Of a stretch of 64,000 nucleotides of DNA, positions 3,548 through 56,400 are shown piece by piece (within the stretch, counting starts at the first letter, position 1; each line of letters opens with the position of its first letter). Location: positions 45,653,825 through 45,717,824 of the forward strand of contig OY997591.1 of assembly GCA_963921825.1 (NCBI GenBank), read 5' to 3'. Below the pieces are notes generated by a model, which saw nothing but the letters and a program-made list of their open reading frames with translations, was not told the DNA's origin and did not search any database. The stretch is from Erodium maritimum (lineage: Eukaryota > Streptophyta > Magnoliopsida > Geraniales > Geraniaceae). Position numbers and translations under genes: made by a program.

Positions 3548-5748
3548 ATGCTTGTCCATACAAGAAGTTTGACGTTGTGGTTGACATTGATCCATGTCCT
3601 CAATTCGGACGCCAAGATTTGCCGGTACAATTGGGAGGTGAAGTACCAATACAAATCTCCCGATTGCTACAAGAAATTGGCCATCGCTATCAACGGCAAA
3701 ACTCCGGGACCTCCCGTCTTGGCTCAACAAGGCGACACCGTCGTCGTTCAGGTCAAGAACAGCCTCCTGACCGAAAACATTGCCATCCATTGGCACGGCA
3801 TCCGCCAGGTACGTAGTACATATAATTACACCGATTATATATGTCGCATTGTATTTACATGTATGTGACATACGTACATTATCATTCATTTTTTGAATGA
3901 GCGGTGATTTATAATATTGGTTTGGCTAATCAAAAAAACATACTTATATTATTATTAGATTGGAACGCCGTGGAGCGACGGGACAGAGGCCGTGTCCCAA
4001 TGTCCTATAATGGCCGGAGACACCTTCACTTACGAGTTTGTAGTTGACAGGGTAAATCACCATCCAACGTATGATCACCTATGAACTCCAACGTATTATG
4101 TTATAAAAGATTCATGTATGTATGTATATATCTCAGGCTGGAACGTATCTATATCATGCGCATTACGGGATGCAAAGAGAAGCAGGGCTCCTGGGGTCGC
4201 TTCGCGTATCGCTTCCGGACGGAGTTGCCGAGCCTTTTGCTTACGACCACGACCGTAGCATCATGCTCACCGATTGGTTCCACAAGAGCACTTACGAGGA
4301 AGCCACCGGATTGTCCTCTGTACCCTTTGGTTGGGTTGGAGATCCTCAGGTAATAGTAAATGCATCATATCTTTCTTAACCAACAATATAGATTTTCTTA
4401 GTCCAACTGGGTTAGCCTGATGGTGAAGACGGTCTCACATCTCTTAAAGGTCCCAATTTTATCACGACGATAATAATTTGTTTGTGTAGTCATTGTTGAT
4501 TCAAGGAAGAGGAAAATTCGATTGCACGAACATGGACGCGGGGATTTGCAATGCCACGAATCCGGAATGCGAGCCTCATTCGGTGCTTGTGATGCCCGGA
4601 AAAACATATCGGTTAAGGATTGGTAGCTTGACGGCCCTAGCATGCCTCAGTTTCCAAATTGAGGTGCCAATATAAAGATTCATCTTTATTCATGTTATTA
4701 CGGTGGCTAATATATAATTGGCTTATGAATGACAGGGGCATGATATGACGGTTGTTGAAACGGATGGGCGTTATGTGGAGCCATTTGTGGTGAAGAACCT
4801 ATTCATATATTCGGGAGAAACATACTCGGTACTAATCAAAGCCGACAAAAACCCTTCCACCAACTATTGGATCACCACCAACATGGTCAGCAGGAGCTCT
4901 AAAACCCCCATGGGCCGGGCCATCCTCAACTACTACCCTAACAACCCGCGAAAATACCCCACCACCGACCCTCCCGCCGGGCCCAAATGGGACGACTTCG
5001 ACCTACAAATGACACAAAGCCACGCCCTCAAGGCCCACAAGGACTTCAACGACAAGCCTCCCCCTCAGGCGGATAGAGTCATAGCGATGCTCAACACTCA
5101 AAACACCATCAACGGAACCTACCGTTGGGCCATCAACAATGTCTCATTCACCCTTCCGGAGACGCCCTACCTCATTGCGCTCAAACAAAACATGACCGAC
5201 ACCTACGATCCAACACCACCTCCTGATGGGTACGCTATAACTTTAATAAAGAAAACTTTGTTAGTTGAGTGTGACCTTTATTTTTTAATCTGAACAGATA
5301 CGATGTCAATTATAACATCTACGAGGTCCAGAGGAACACGAACTCTACATTGAGCAGGAGTATTTATAAGCTGGATTTCAACTCCACGGTCGATGTCATA
5401 CTCCAAAACGCAAACAGTATGACGCAGAACAACAGCGAGATGCATCCGTGGCACTTACATGGACACGACTTTTGGGTGCTCGGGTATGGACTGGGGAAAT
5501 ACGATGGTAACAAGGACCCGGAGAAGTACAATGTAGCGGATCCGATAATGAAGAACACGGTGGTGCTGTATCCCTACGGATGGACGGCTCTGCGGTTCCG
5601 GGCGGACAACCCGGGGGTTTGGGCGTTCCATTGCCACATAGAGTCTCACTTCTGCATGGGAATGGGAGTGGTGTTTGCGGAAGGTATTGACAGGGTTGCC
5701 AAGTTGCCGCCAAACATCATGGGTTGTGGCAAAGCAAGGTTCCAATGA
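3548..5748 (+). CDS. L-ascorbate oxidase (multicopper oxidase), six exons
   Basis: Exons: 3548-3808, 3959-4051, 4137-4349, 4490-4663, 4736-5229 and 5298-5748. All introns are GT-AG and all phases join, giving 561 residues. The protein starts with a hydrophobic leader (MLVHTRSLTLWLTLIHVL) and fits secretion to the apoplast, where ascorbate oxidase couples oxidation of ascorbate to reduction of O2 to water. Three cupredoxin domains are implied. All copper motifs are present: HWHGIRQ in exon 1, YHAHYGMQ in exon 3, HPWHLHGH and HCHIESHFCMGM in exon 6; the last holds the type 1 Cys and Met. N-glycosylation sequons (NVS, NMT, NGT) are visible. Length and residues such as QIGTPW and AGTYLYHAHYG favour ascorbate oxidase over laccase or SKU5-like proteins. 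It appears intact. Confidence 0.95.
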
Positions 5749-6492
5749 TTATGTATATACTTAATTAACATGTGTCGCTTTTATTGTCAATGTAATTAAA
5801 AATGTAACTTGTGATGAAATACAATCTCGCATCCAGTAATACATCATTTTCCATAGCATACATTAGGGTGGAACACTGGCCCCACTTGATTTCTAAATTA
5901 ATCATCGTATGAGGTTAGTTGGTCGACCATATGTTGTTCTTAATCGTTGAAATACTAATGTTCGGAATCTTGTGGGGTGGCAATTAAGTGTCATAGTTTT
6001 TTCTTTTAAATATAAAGATTTATTAAAATATTAATAAATCTTACAGACCGAACCACACATATCGAATAACAGAAGCGTTGTATCTACTAGTCGTTTTCAA
6101 AAACTCGAGAAACGGCTAGTGTGATGAATAGCTCTTGAGAAAGGGACGCATCGCCTAGAAAAATAATAACGACCAGAACGGTCTTTCTTATCGACTTTTC
6201 GAACAACTCCATCGATAGAAAGACTCGACTGGACACGCTACTAGAGGCAGCAGTTACACCTATGAGAGATCTGAGATTCCGACAGAGAGGACAAACATAC
6301 GACATATAAAAAGCTTGAATGAAGTTGATTTGGTCTTCTAATATAATATCAGAGTTTGGTATCTCGGGTCCAACAACCCTTCATTGGTTTGAATGAAGCT
6401 CAAATTCAGATTCAATCTCTCTTAACATACATGATGAATGAAAGAAAACCTTAGCATTTCCAAAGGAAGAAGGGAAAGTAATTAATGTAAGT
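5749..6492. other. Intergenic region between convergent genes
   Basis: AT-rich 3' flanks of the ascorbate oxidase (plus) and HIPP (minus) genes, with no supported gene. The stretch 6326-6353 (TGATTTGGTCTTCTAATATA and following bases) resembles the core of the repeat found three times in the HIPP intron. Confidence 0.5.
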
Positions 6493-7370
6493 TTACATGA
6501 GAGAGCAAGCATTAGGGTTGTCATCACTGAACATGGCCATGTAAGGGTCTTGATCATGTCTGGTGACAGTCCCATTATTATTACTTGTTGGATTGTCCAC
6601 CTTCCTTACGTAACCAGGAGGAGCCTTCTTGTCATAAGCCTGAGCAACGTACGGCTGAGCCATCAGATTGTACGGCACATACGGCCATATCTCTGCTTTC
6701 TTCCCCGTTGACTTGGCCTTCTTCAGCACCTTGCTTGCCTCCACATACCCGTTCACCGTCACCTTCTGCTGCTTCCTGTTTATCTCCACAGATTTCACTC
6801 CTGCACAAACACAAGGACAAACATGCTTTTAGCTGAATTGATCTTCTAATATGATATCAGAACGATACATTTCAAGACCCATAAAACATATTTAGTCGAG
6901 AGAAATGTGTAAGCTTAAGCTTTTGATACTTACCACTTAATGAAGAGAGCGCTTTCTTGACATCACAACTATACGATCTAAGCTTTTAGCTGAATTGATC
7001 TTCTAATATGATATCAGAATATACATATGCAAAGACTCAGAAAATGTATTTAGTCGACGTGGATGTGTAAGCTTAAGCTTTTGATACTTACCACTTAATG
7101 AAGAGAGCGCTTTCTTGACATCACAACTATACGATCTAAGCTTTTAGCTGAATTGATCTTCTAATATGATATCAGAATATACATATGCAAAGACTCAGAA
7201 AACGTATTTAGTCGACGTGGATGTGTAAGCTTAAGCTTTTGCTACTTACCACTTAATGAAGAGAGCGCTTTCTTGACCTTGAGCTCACACCCATCACAAT
7301 CCATCCTCACTTTGAGCTCCACAGTCTGCAATTGCTTCTTCTTCTTGTGTTTGTGTCCACTGCTGGCCAT
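6493..7370 (-). CDS. Heavy-metal-associated isoprenylated plant protein (HIPP26/27-type), main part, split by a transposon
   Basis: Exons on the minus strand: 7370-7250 and 6800-6493. The first reads MASSGHKHKKKK then an HMA domain with the metal-binding MDCDGC motif. The second completes the domain (VKSVEINRKQQKVTV) and ends in the CaaX prenylation box CSLM. Together they give 142 residues. HIPPs bind transition metals and, once farnesylated, associate with membranes or the nucleus in metal and stress responses. The family's usual N-terminus, MGVGGTLEYLSDL, is not next to this ATG. It lies in the same frame at 9667-9628 beyond a Harbinger element, so Met14 is now the first Met of this part. 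The complete protein would be 155 residues, as expected for the family. The intron holds three copies of the exon-1 3' end with a donor site. Confidence 0.88.
6834..7277 (-). repeat. Three tandem copies of the HIPP exon-1 end plus intron start
   Basis: Units start near 6834, 6991 and 7149 (periods 157 and 158 bp). Each contains the last 28 nt of exon 1 (GTCAAGAAAGCGCTCTCTTC and following), the donor GTAAGTA, and about 120 bp of intron. Only the copy at 7250-7277 is joined to the rest of exon 1. The donors lie at 6931-6933, 7089-7091 and 7247-7249. Confidence 0.9.
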
Positions 7371-7372
7371 TA

Positions 7373-9627
7373 GAGCATGTACAACAGAAAGGACCTTGGT
7401 CAGGGAGTGGGAGTGCAGAACTTGTGCTGACTGGACAAAAGTGAGGGAGTGGGAGTGCAGAAAAGTGGGTGTTTTGCAACAGAAAGGACCTCTGAGGTCC
7501 TGGGAGTGCAGAACAGTGCTGACTGGATTATTATTTGATATTTTCCTGTTTTATTTAATTCGTTATCAGAAACCGTTTAAATTATTTATAATTTAAACAA
7601 TTTTGGAAATAAATAATTAATGACAATAAATAATACATAAATAAATTTAACACGAATATAATTGAACTTTAAATTTTATTCAACCCCTTTGAATACAACC
7701 CAAAACAAAATACAAGTTCAAGAATCATCGTCTGTTGGATCGACATCCGGTGGTGTGGGTTGTCGTCGAAGATCATCGATTTGGGCTTTAAGGGTGGCTA
7801 TGAGTTTTCGCAGTTCGGACTTGAAAAACCTATGGTCTTCCATAGCCTCTTCGTCGTAGGAAGATGTATCCGCCCCCACCAGGGACTTGTAGGTGGCGAG
7901 GTTTGTTTCCCACTGTTGGGTTAATGTATGTATCAGGCGATGCCTTTCTTCATTTTGTTCGCCACGTGAACGTTCAGCATCCACCCGTGAACGTTCCAGC
8001 TCGGCGAAGGCAGACATTTGGGCCGTGAGGACGGTCCCCTTCTTTGCGGCCTTCGCTGCCTTCTTCCCTTGCGGTCGGTGAGGGGGACTTGGGGCGGCCT
8101 CAGGGGATGGGGCTGTGTCGCTGAGAGGGACTTGAGTCCCCTCGTAGTTGTCGCTTCCTCCCCATTCTGGTTGTTGTGACTCACCACTGAGATGTGTGCC
8201 CTCCTCCCCTGTACTTGTGGGTGGGGTTGAGCTGTAAGCCTCAGCCTCATCCAACCGTTGTCGTTGTTGGCGTACCTGACTGCAGACAGTTCCCATTGTG
8301 CCCTCCTGGGCAGTGAACTTCGTGACGCCCTCGAGCATCGCCATCCAATGATCCAGGTCGAACTTTAGTGGGAGTTCTTTCACCACTTCCCCTGCGTCCT
8401 CCCACATTTTCTTCGCACGTCTCAAGTGCTCTTCCGGGTTTGCGCCGCTCGGATTCTCGGCCTTGGACCTCTTCAAATAGCCGAGCATCCTCCTTGTCTG
8501 CCCAAACCCTCTGAGCCAACGTTTCTTGATAGCTTCCCATTTGCGATGTGGGAAACCTCCCCTCGAGTTGTATTTCTTCGTAACTTGGCACCAGAATGTG
8601 CTGCCGGTTTGAGAGTTACCCTTGACGGCGTCTTTTGTAGTGCTCAACCAGCAAGTTATGAGGTGGTGGTCCTCCTCCTTGCTGAATGTCCAGCCCTCCG
8701 GATCTGGTTCTTCGGGTTGGGCTCGGGGTTGGGCTCGGGCTCGGGCTCGTCATTGGGAAGGTCCGGCAGAGGATGGTTGGGGGGTTTGTACGTCGGGTAG
8801 TGGATGGCCCTCGTAGTTGTAGAATTGGGGTGGCATGCCCCATTGTGATGGCACTTGGAACAGTGGCGTCTGGAAACCTTGTGGGGGCATGCCCCATTGT
8901 GATGGCACTTGGAACCCTGGCGCCATTTGGAATTGTTGGGGACGGTATTGCCCTAATAAAAAAATTTAATACAATAAATTAAGTGAAAATTGTAACACAA
9001 TGTATTAATATAATAAAATAATTAAAAAATGAATACAATGCATTAATAATTAACAAAATTACGTTACATGAATAATAAGTTTGCACTTACCTGAACTCGA
9101 CCTCGGGTTCGAGTTTGGGGAGTTGGAGCGATTGCCCGTTAGAATGTCTCTGAAACCTCGTGCCACTTCGTCCTCGGTGAATCCTACTTCGTCACCAGCT
9201 GACTGTGCACGAGACCCAGCGTCGCCCGATATTTTTCACGAGAATAATTGAAACGAGAGAGGAGAATTTGGGAAGGAGAGAGTGAAGTTGGATAGTGGAA
9301 GTAGAAAGTGGTGTGAAAAAAATGAGAGGAGAGGGGTATTTATAGGGTTTTTTTTGCTGATTTTTGAATTAAAAAAAACACTAGCCGTTATAGTGCCAAC
9401 AGTCGGGACACGTGGCGGCGGCACACGCTGCCACCGCAGGAGAGGGCGCGGCGGCGCGTCCAGCGCGCCCGGCCAGCGAGAGGGGAGCGGGGAGCGGTGC
9501 AAGGGGAGCGGGAGCGCGTGCAAGGGGAGCGGGACGGCGTTTTTCGGCCTCCACAACGGAACGGCCAGCGCGCCTGGCCAGCGAACGCCACGGCGCGGGG
9601 AGCGGGGCCGTTCTGTTGTGCTTGCTC
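7373..9627 (-). mobile_element. PIF/Harbinger DNA transposon, ORF1 only, inserted in HIPP exon 1
   Basis: The left end GAGCATGTACAACAGAAAGG is matched in inverse by the right end (GAGCAAGCACAACAGAACGG on the minus strand). The element is flanked by the 3-bp duplication TTA at 7370-7372 and 9628-9630, the usual PIF/Harbinger target. It carries the family's Myb/SANT-like ORF1 but no DDE transposase, so it is non-autonomous. GC-rich short repeats based on GGGGAGCGGG occupy 9410-9600 next to the right end. Confidence 0.85.
7718..9232 (-). pseudogene. PIF/Harbinger ORF1 (Myb/SANT-like, NAM-associated type)
   Basis: Two exons on the minus strand: about 9232-9091 (ending at GTAAGTG) and 8952-7718, joined in phase across a 138-bp intron. 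After a Gln/Pro-rich stretch with a duplicated FQVPSQWGMPP motif comes GWTFSKEEDHHLITCWLS, a trihelix/Myb-like helix set including FWCQVTKKYN and KWEAIKKRWL, then a coiled-coil-rich C-terminus. ORF1 proteins of this type act with the element's transposase and are often annotated as NAM-associated or glutathione S-transferase T3-like. One in-frame TGA at 8750-8752 cuts the frame; the part from 8647 is still open for 309 codons. No clear ATG was found in exon 1. Confidence 0.75.
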
Positions 9628-9667
9628 TTAGGTCAGAAAGGTACTCTAATGTCCCTCCAACCCCCAT
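9628..9667 (-). CDS. Severed first 13 codons of the HIPP gene
   Basis: The minus strand from 9667 reads MGVGGTLEYLSDL, the conserved start of HIPP26/27-type proteins. It then enters the PIF/Harbinger terminal repeat at 9627. The frame continues exactly at codon 14 (ATG GCC AGC) on the other side of the element at 7370. Codon 13 (CTA) and the A of ATG at codon 14 include the duplicated TTA target site. As it stands the frame reads on into transposon sequence and stops at 9236, predicting a 143-residue chimera. Confidence 0.8.
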
Positions 9668-9810: not shown

Positions 9811-9820
9811 GTATTTATAG
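9811..9820 (-). promoter_or_regulatory. TATA box of the HIPP gene
   Basis: CTATAAATAC on the minus strand lies about 145 bp upstream of the original HIPP start at 9667. It predicts a transcription start near 9785 and a leader of roughly 118 nt. The promoter is therefore intact but now separated from most of the coding region by the Harbinger insertion. Confidence 0.6.
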
Positions 9821-53427: not shown

Positions 53428-56400
53428 ATTGGTTTTGGACATGACGGCATTTGACGTGATCTTGGGGATGGACTGGCTTGCGAGGTATCGAGCGTCGATC
53501 GATTGCTATCGACGGCAGGTGACAGTGGTCTCGGGTGGCACGATCGTCACTTGTGTACTGGGAAGTAGGAGCGGAGTTCTCCTGTCAACATTGACCTCGG
53601 GAGATGAGGTGGCGACCGAGCGGAGTAGAGAGCTGCCGCGAGTGGTATGTGAGTTTCCGTAGGTTTTCCCGGAGGAGCTGTCGGGATTACCGCCTGTGCG
53701 CGAGGTGGAGTTCAGGATTGATTTGATACCTGGTACGGCGCTGATATCCATGGCCCCGTACCGGTTTTCACCAGCCGAGTTGGTCGAGCTGAAGCGACAA
53801 CTCGAGGAGCTTCGGGAGAAGGGATTTATCTGTCCGAGTGCTTCACCCTGGGAAGCACCCGCCCTCTTCGTGAAGAATAAGAAGGGTGGAGCGCTGCAGA
53901 TGTGCATCGATTACCGGAAGTTGAACCGGGTCATGGTGAAGAACCGTTACTCGATGCCGAGGATCGATGACTTGTTCGATCAACTGAGAGGAGCGAAGTG
54001 CTTCTCAAAGATTGATCTACGATCAGGGTATTATCAGTTGAGAGTTCGAGAAGAGGATGTGGCGAAGACCGCATTTCGGACTCGGTATGGGCACTACGAG
54101 TTCCTGGTGATGCCGTTCGGGCTGACGAACACACCTGCAGCGTTCATGGACCTGATGAACGGTATTTTCCGACCGTATCTGGACTAATTCGTCGTGGTAT
54201 TCGTAGACGACATTCTGATTTATTCGCCGAGTGAGGAGGCGCATGAGGAGCACCTGAGGACAGTTTTGACGTTGTCGTGCACTCACTAGTTGTACGACAA
54301 CCTAGAGAAGTGCGAGTTTTGGCTCGCCGAGGTGAAGTTCCTCGGGCATGTTATGTCCCGAGAGGGTATACTGGTCGATCCAGTGAAGATCGACGCGATC
54401 TCGAAGTGGGCACGGCCCAAGAGTGTCTTCGAGATCCAGGATACTATCGACGGTTCGTCCAGGACTTCTCACGTCTGGCCGCGCCGATGACTGCCCTAAC
54501 ACGCAAGGGAGTCGAGTTTCTGTGGACTGATGAGTGTGAGCACTCATTTATCGAGCTGAAGGCTCGTTTGACTACCGCTCCCGTGTTGATCGTGCCGAAG
54601 CGAGGGATCAGTTATGATGTATATTGTGATGCGTCCGGTGAGGGACTGGGATGTGTATTGATGCAATCCGAGAAGGTAATTGCTTATGTCTCCAGACAGT
54701 TGAACACACATGAGCGCAACTACCCTACCCACGATCTAGAGTTGGCATCAGTCGTCTTTGCGCTGAAGAGCTGGCGACACTACTTGTATTGAGAGCGATT
54801 CTGGGTGTTCTCGGATCACAAGAGTCTCAAGTACATCTTCTCCCAGCGCGACCTAAACATGCGCCAGAGGCGGTGGATGAAGCTACTTGAGGAGTACGAC
54901 TTCGAGCTACTCTATCATCCGGGCAAGGCGAACGTTGTCGTCGATGCCCTGAGTAGGAAGTCGGTCCATTTCCTGACTGTTATATCAGTCCGAGAGTGGG
55001 ACATGATGGAGGAGTTGATCTCGTTCAAACTTGAGCTAGATGAGGTCACCGATAGCATGGCTATGTGTTCGCTGGTAGCTCAGCCCACACTAGTTGCTCG
55101 TGTGCTAGGGGCACAGGCCGAGGATGTCGAGACGGCAGAGATCCGGGAGAGGATTACCAACGGTGTTGACGCTGAGGGCTGGGAGCAGGGTACCGATCTG
55201 GGTCTACGTTACCGAAGAGGACTGTTTATGCCACGTAGCTGCAGAGACGAGGTTTTGAGAGAGTCTCATCACTCCTGTCTTGTTGTGTACCCGGGTGGCA
55301 CCAAGATGTATCGGGATGTTAGGAGACAGTTCTGGTGGAGCGGGATGCGGAGAGCGATTGCAGAGTTTGTCTTGAGATGCCTTACTTGTCAGCAAGTGAA
55401 GGCCGAGCATCAGCGTCCCGCCGGTTTATTACAGCCACTGCCAATCGCGCAGTGGAAGTGGGAGCACGTCACGATGGATTTCGTATGTGGGTTACCGAGG
55501 TCGCCGAGAGGGCACGACGCAGTTTGGACAGCGGTCGACCGACTGACCAAGTCTGCGCATTTTTTAGCCATGAGGATGACCGACATGGTTGGTACACTGA
55601 GCCGTTTGTACGTTCGAGAGATTGTCCGACTTCACGGAGTACTAGTGTCTGTTGTGTCCGACAGGGATCCTCGATTCACCTCCAGATTCTGGGAGAGCTT
55701 GCAGAGAGCCTTGGGGACCGAGGTTCTACTTAGTACATCGTACTACCCGCAGACAGATGGTCAGTCAGAGCGCACGATTCAGATCTTAGAGGACATGTTG
55801 CGGGCGTGCGTGTTAGACTTTCGAGGATTATGGGAGGATCACCTACCATTAGCCGAGTTCGCCTACAACAACAACTTCCATTCCAGTATCGGGATGGCAC
55901 TGTTAGAGGCGTTGTATGGTAGGCCGTGCAGATCGCCCGTGTGTTGGGCAGAGGTAGGAGACATGAGTTTGCTTGGGTCGGAGCTTGTCCAGGAGACGAC
56001 CGAGAAGGTCGCGTTGATTCGAGAGCGGTTGAAGACCGCGTAGAGCTGATAGAAGAGTTATGCGGATAGACGACGCCGACCTCTCGAGTTTACAGTTGGT
56101 GATCGTGTGTTTCTGAGAGTGAGCCCGAAGAAGGGTTTATTGTGGTTCAACCGCGGCGGAGGCAAGTTGGCCTCGCGGTTTATTGGACCTTTTGAGGTTT
56201 TGGGCAGAGTTGGAGCCGTTGCATATCGCCTTGCATTGCCACCGCAGCTTGGGAACGTTCACAACTTCTTCCACGTTTCCCAACTGCGGAAGTACACCGT
56301 GGACCCCTCCCACGTTATTGAGTGGACGGACATCGAGGTAGCCGAGGATGTCTCGTACGAGGAACAGCCAGTCAGGATTCTGGATACGCCAGAGCATGTC

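Follow-up and report, generated by a model that had tools for sequence, protein, structure and literature searches.

Transposons of the PIF/Harbinger type are mobilised by ORF1 and a transposase, and the autonomous members carry an ORF for a DDE transposase. The closest described elements, Ping/Pong/mPing and PIF, have a TTA target-site duplication (TSD), terminal inverted repeats (TIRs) and an ORF with a Myb-like match. All three match the descriptions of the family in passages of PMC2836001 and PMC2528002, the first of which also gives an extended target-site preference, 9 bp in plants, as a feature. Insertion into genes is common in Brassica rapa, where, in an excerpt of PMC9241368, 23% of reference genes harbour a transposon and changes of gene structure are frequent. 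HIPPs are given roles in metal handling and disease susceptibility in passages of two reviews (PMC10459601, PMC12835825), and the rice gene pi21 (OsHIPP05) is described in part of the second as a natural loss-of-function allele of a HIPP-class gene. Our literature search found no HIPP gene with a transposon insertion.

We analysed a window of 64 kb (the whole stretch of DNA presented here), which is plant nuclear DNA by its genes (GC 44.8%, no N). It contains a HIPP gene on the minus strand, with its ATG at 9667, its stop at 6495-6493 and one intervening element in the first exon (Table 1). When the flanks of this element are joined, the protein has an HMA domain (Pfam E=1.6e-14, residues 33-88), the MxCxxC motif of the HIPP family in the form MDCDGC, and a C-terminal CaaX box, CSLM, directly before the stop. 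It shares HMA and CaaX with the HIPP23-type HIPPs of eudicots, but differs from them in its interrupted first exon and in the CSLM box (6496-6507), which 2 of the 120 homologues listed carry (against 91 with CSIM, 25 with CSVM and 2 with CFIM). A motif scan places TATAAATA at 9819, upstream of the native ATG. The junction of exon 1 and intron lies in a 158-bp tandem repeat, which supplies two extra 5' splice sites (7091 and 6933), each with 29 bp of exon and with scores equal to that of the real site. If these donors were used, intron sequence would be retained and would lead to an immediate stop (GGT AAG TAG).

Table 1. Features of the interrupted HIPP gene and of the inserted element (positions in the window)
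Feature	Position	Strand	Basis
TATA box (TATAAATA context) ahead of the native HIPP ATG	9814..9819	-	motif scan and sequence
HIPP codons 1-13, MGVGGTLEYLSDL, severed by the element	9629..9667	-	translation; kept in listed homologues
Chimeric ORF from the native ATG, 143 aa (13 HIPP and 130 element codons, then stop)	9236..9667	-	no Pfam match
TSD TTA, copy on the 5' side of the gene	9628..9630	.	sequence and TTA pair ranking
PIF/Harbinger-like DNA transposon, apparently non-autonomous, 2,255 bp; ORF1 remnant in HIPP direction	7373..9627	-	
TIR, right end (GAGCAAGCACAACAGAAC... on the minus strand)	9604..9627	.	repeat search and TTA pair ranking
ORF1 remnant with Myb/SANT-like domain; same frame broken by TGA farther upstream	7718..8647	-	Pfam
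TIR, left end (GAGCATGTACAACAGAAA...)	7373..7396	.	repeat search and TTA pair ranking
Two-codon upstream ORF ATG-CTC-TAA, from element end and TSD	7370..7378	-	motif scan and sequence
TSD TTA, copy beside codon 14	7370..7372	.	sequence and TTA pair ranking
Rest of HIPP exon 1 from Met14, including MDCDGC	7250..7370	-	translation
158-bp tandem repeat, 2.9 copies, over the exon 1/intron junction	6825..7277	-	repeat search and motif scan
HIPP intron, 449 bp	6801..7249	-	translation
HIPP exon 2, CSLM then stop	6493..6800	-	translation

The element parts HIPP codons 1-13 from codon 14, the ATG of which lies at 7370-7368, and there is a TTA at each of its ends. The first-pass annotation had proposed that a PIF/Harbinger element splits the exon between codons 13 and 14 and that the frame is continuous once the element and one TTA are removed. 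The coordinates proved exact to the base, and translation of the joined flanks gives a protein of 155 aa in frame and without internal stop. A second intact exon 1 would have spoken against this arrangement, but tblastn and a motif scan found no other copy of the N-terminal HIPP exon in the 64-kb window. The insertion comes from a single assembly, so we considered an artefact in which the element is present in one haplotype or in somatic tissue, or in which the sequence is misjoined. Against this, TTA copies on both sides together with matching TIRs are the mark of a genuine insertion, and a misjoin would hardly restore the exact frame at a 3-bp duplication. We regard such an artefact as extremely unlikely.

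The TIRs are imperfect. A repeat search found 24 nt that are 83% complementary in a register one base off, and 19 of 24 positions are complementary in the register set by the TTA. The TTA/TIR pair of the element ranks first among the 149,418 pairs of TTA that lie 100-8,000 bp apart in the window; two runner-up pairs reach 18, one AT-rich and the other (26839/32875) more mixed. As a control, pairs flanked by TAA reach 19 in 2 of 135,470 cases, both of them AT-rich runs, whereas the ends of the element are mixed. The 3-bp TTA duplication and the TIRs match those of PIF/Harbinger. A Myb/SANT-like ORF1 is indicated by a weak and partial match to Myb_DNA-bind_5 (4.4e-5, 23.8 bits against a cut-off of 21.7; profile 38-73 of 78), and a NAM-associated match (0.038) lies under its cut-off. 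The TSD, the TIRs and this Myb-like match support the family named in the first-pass annotation. The assignment is weakened because a protein search with ORF1 found no relative at E<=0.001 among 1,383 candidates, which also sets the element apart from described PIF/Harbinger members.

Two further features distinguish it from Ping/Pong/mPing and PIF: no transposase was found in its scanned ORFs, and its ORF1 is interrupted. The donor at 9090 and the acceptor at 8952 are the top-scoring sites between 9900 and 7200 by a crude matrix, and splicing there would add an upstream part of the ORF1 frame. In the spliced frame a TGA precedes the Myb-like part, and the first exon contains no ATG. There was no Pfam match to a transposase in 12 element ORFs or pieces, a selection of the frames that includes the chimeric ORF and one piece reaching past the element; as a member of the family, the element is apparently non-autonomous. 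Within the 64-kb window, blastn detected no other copy of it, giving only internal self-matches.

A search with the 155-aa joined protein returned 1,074 relatives at E<=0.001 from a database clustered at 90% (names such as HIPP23-type are those given by the sources), and the best 120 of these, at 76-86% identity over 96-100% of the query, were used. Among the 120 listed, all begin with MG and 119 with MGxxx[ST]; one begins MGYLSD and is a shorter form of another kind. Methionine stands at position 14 in 92 of them (both counts were made without an alignment). The commonest first 14 residues, MGVGGTLEYLSDLM, occur in 36 of the 120 and are identical to the joined flanks. The shared start and Met14 therefore show that the two flanks are one conserved exon separated by the insert. 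Neither an empty-site allele nor an annotated shortened form was found among the best 120 of 1,074, where the top identity is 86%.

The remainder downstream of the element had been described as open, and the in-frame ATG, MDCDGC and CSLM are indeed all present. When the joined protein is aligned with the 120 homologues listed, 88 columns are at least 95% conserved, and the joined protein deviates in one of them, Val to Met at codon 100. The homologues themselves, which are the closest of 1,074 and so favour conserved rows, deviate at a mean of 1.5 columns (median 1, maximum 7), with at least one deviation in 84 of the 120. The deviation score is thus that of a functional gene and the coding sequence has not decayed. 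Under a rough model of neutral drift, which assumes 7e-9 mutations per site per year and ignores generation time, the probability of one deviation or fewer is 0.07 at 2 My and 0.02 at 3 My. These low values weakly disfavour an old, unconstrained insertion. The undecayed codons are consistent with the recent event suggested in the first-pass annotation, but lack of decay fits recent insertion and continued selection on the remainder equally well.

Taken together, these data make it likely that a recent transposon insertion has removed the full-length HIPP from the disrupted copy. We suggest that an apparently non-autonomous PIF/Harbinger-type transposon entered a TTA in the first exon of a HIPP23-type gene that was functional and had a single HMA domain, and so would have ended production of the full-length protein here. 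Transcripts made from the native promoter would be read from the old ATG through 13 HIPP codons into 130 element codons and then to a stop. The resulting 143-aa chimera has no Pfam match and no HMA domain; a chimera with transposon sequence had been put forward as a separate outcome, and it can indeed be read from the native start but would amount to a null. There are also AATAAA motifs in the element at 7680 and 7555, poly(A)-like signals that precede the HIPP remainder, although 6.9% of shuffles have two or more AATAAA in the element's last 345 bp. Since read-through meets a stop and the AATAAA motifs precede the remainder, the likeliest outcome is loss of the full-length HIPP. The recent null allele is accordingly the likeliest of the options first offered, with both loss of function and recency inferred from the sequence. 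A second TATAAATA lies inside the element at 9344 in the same direction as the HIPP gene.

Some considerations temper the reading of loss. The HMA domain, intron and CaaX box are all retained in the Met14 remainder, and the copy may therefore not have lost all function. Transposon insertions in genes of Brassica rapa can act via new introns, as described in an excerpt of PMC9241368, and by that analogy the present element might be spliced out as a new intron, which counts against loss. The allele may also be revertible, because in a passage of PMC2836001 excision in the family members studied is usually perfect; reversion would call for an active autonomous partner.

A different consequence would be that HIPP survives in an N-terminally shortened form of 142 aa from Met14. 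Its transcript would start within the element, for example at the TATA-like site at 7590, or the native 5' UTR would be spliced into the 3' end of the element, and transposon-made introns of the kind reported in the same Brassica rapa excerpt would serve the second route. Met14 is in frame and shared with most of the listed homologues (see above), and no decay is seen in its coding sequence. Downstream of about 7560, the sole ATG ahead of Met14 belongs to a two-codon ORF, ATG-CTC-TAA, whose start context is weak and whose stop shares one base with the ATG of codon 14. With an upstream ORF of this kind, a transcript that began near 7560 could be translated from Met14. To that extent an element promoter could drive a shortened protein, as first proposed, but a TATA-like site such as the nearest one (7590) is expected by chance in 33% of shuffles of the stretch, and this one sits between the AATAAA motifs at 7680 and 7555. 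The splicing route scores poorly on a crude matrix: the region from 9820 to 9628 holds no strong donor, the best donor in the 5' UTR (9674) reaches 0.4 bits against 5.7 for the real HIPP donor, and the best acceptors (7426-7499) reach 1.0-2.1 against 8.1 for the real acceptor. Additionally, none of the 120 listed homologues is a Met14-start form. We therefore consider a surviving shortened HIPP unlikely.

The shortened form would lose the conserved glycine-2 N-terminus and would be predicted to keep metal binding and prenylation. The native start, MGVGGT, fits an N-myristoylation consensus. Myristoylation of HIPPs was not found in the literature searched: the myristoyl passages of PMC12609287 concern no HIPPs, and the word 'myristoyl' is absent from the HIPP reviews PMC10459601 and PMC12835825, in one of which S-acylation is described beside prenylation. 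A stronger version, in which the insertion made an element-driven shortened isoform with altered membrane or plasmodesma targeting and excision switches between both forms, is in our view highly unlikely. If true, it would mean an isoform without the myristoylation-like glycine-2 end, and targeting to membrane or plasmodesma would differ.

The window also contains the gene for CELLULOSE SYNTHASE INTERACTIVE 1 (CSI1), on the minus strand from about 46059 to 39474 or beyond and about 30 kb from the HIPP start. Its identity is up to 87% among the listed homologues, a value common to unrelated eudicot families. Linkage elsewhere was judged by proxy, equal contig size in the HIPP and CSI1 homologue tables being taken as a shared contig; only rows whose contig reached 100 kb were counted, which left out 19 of the 120. 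By this measure, 27 of 101 HIPP rows match a listed CSI1 row, although one match pairs two different Populus names. The remaining 74 rows have no partner among the listed CSI1 matches and are no evidence either way. Near-adjacent locus tags for the two genes occur in Paulownia (Pfo_018703/Pfo_018702), Jatropha (JCGZ_24099/JCGZ_24101) and Nyssa (F0562_005641/F0562_005639), and the tags in Erythroxylum are more distant (K2173_005309 vs K2173_005197). The linkage suggests that the disrupted HIPP lies at the ancestral position near CSI1 and is probably not a stray copy.

This position bears on redundancy. The function may be carried by another, intact HIPP23-type gene of the genome, so that the insertion would be nearly neutral; this is compatible with loss of the full-length protein from the disrupted copy and differs on the consequence. 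Two such proteins occur in some eudicots among the 120 listed (for example Ilex paraguariensis, Durio zibethinus and Juglans regia), and the intronic 158-bp tandem duplication of the splice donor could signal relaxed constraint. Arabidopsis HIPPs are redundant according to a passage of PMC10459601, and by that precedent a paralogue may cover the HIPP function here. The disrupted copy, however, is the one near CSI1 as in other eudicots, and it shows no decay. A nearly neutral insertion seems to us possible but rather doubtful.

Loss of the full-length HIPP from this copy, the reading we prefer, resembles rice pi21 in being a natural disruption of a HIPP-class gene. It differs in that pi21 has been characterised and has a blast-resistance phenotype, and in that the present allele is due to a transposon. 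The insertion polymorphisms of Brassica rapa likewise involve transposons that alter gene structure, but they are population variants, whereas the present insertion comes from one assembly. The locus shows a transposon cleanly inserted into a conserved coding exon, at a stage when the rest of the gene has not yet decayed; it may serve as a presence/absence marker and as a natural HIPP allele with loss or shortening of the protein. It adds one more case to an ordinary kind of gene disruption and leaves knowledge of transposons or HIPPs unchanged.

Elsewhere in the window, a multi-exon multicopper oxidase gene on the plus strand (~3580-5750), by eye close to L-ascorbate oxidase/laccase, is arranged tail-to-tail with the HIPP gene. 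Pieces of a Gypsy-type reverse transcriptase, RNase H and integrase were recognised by eye in the ORF list at 53696-56043 on the plus strand.
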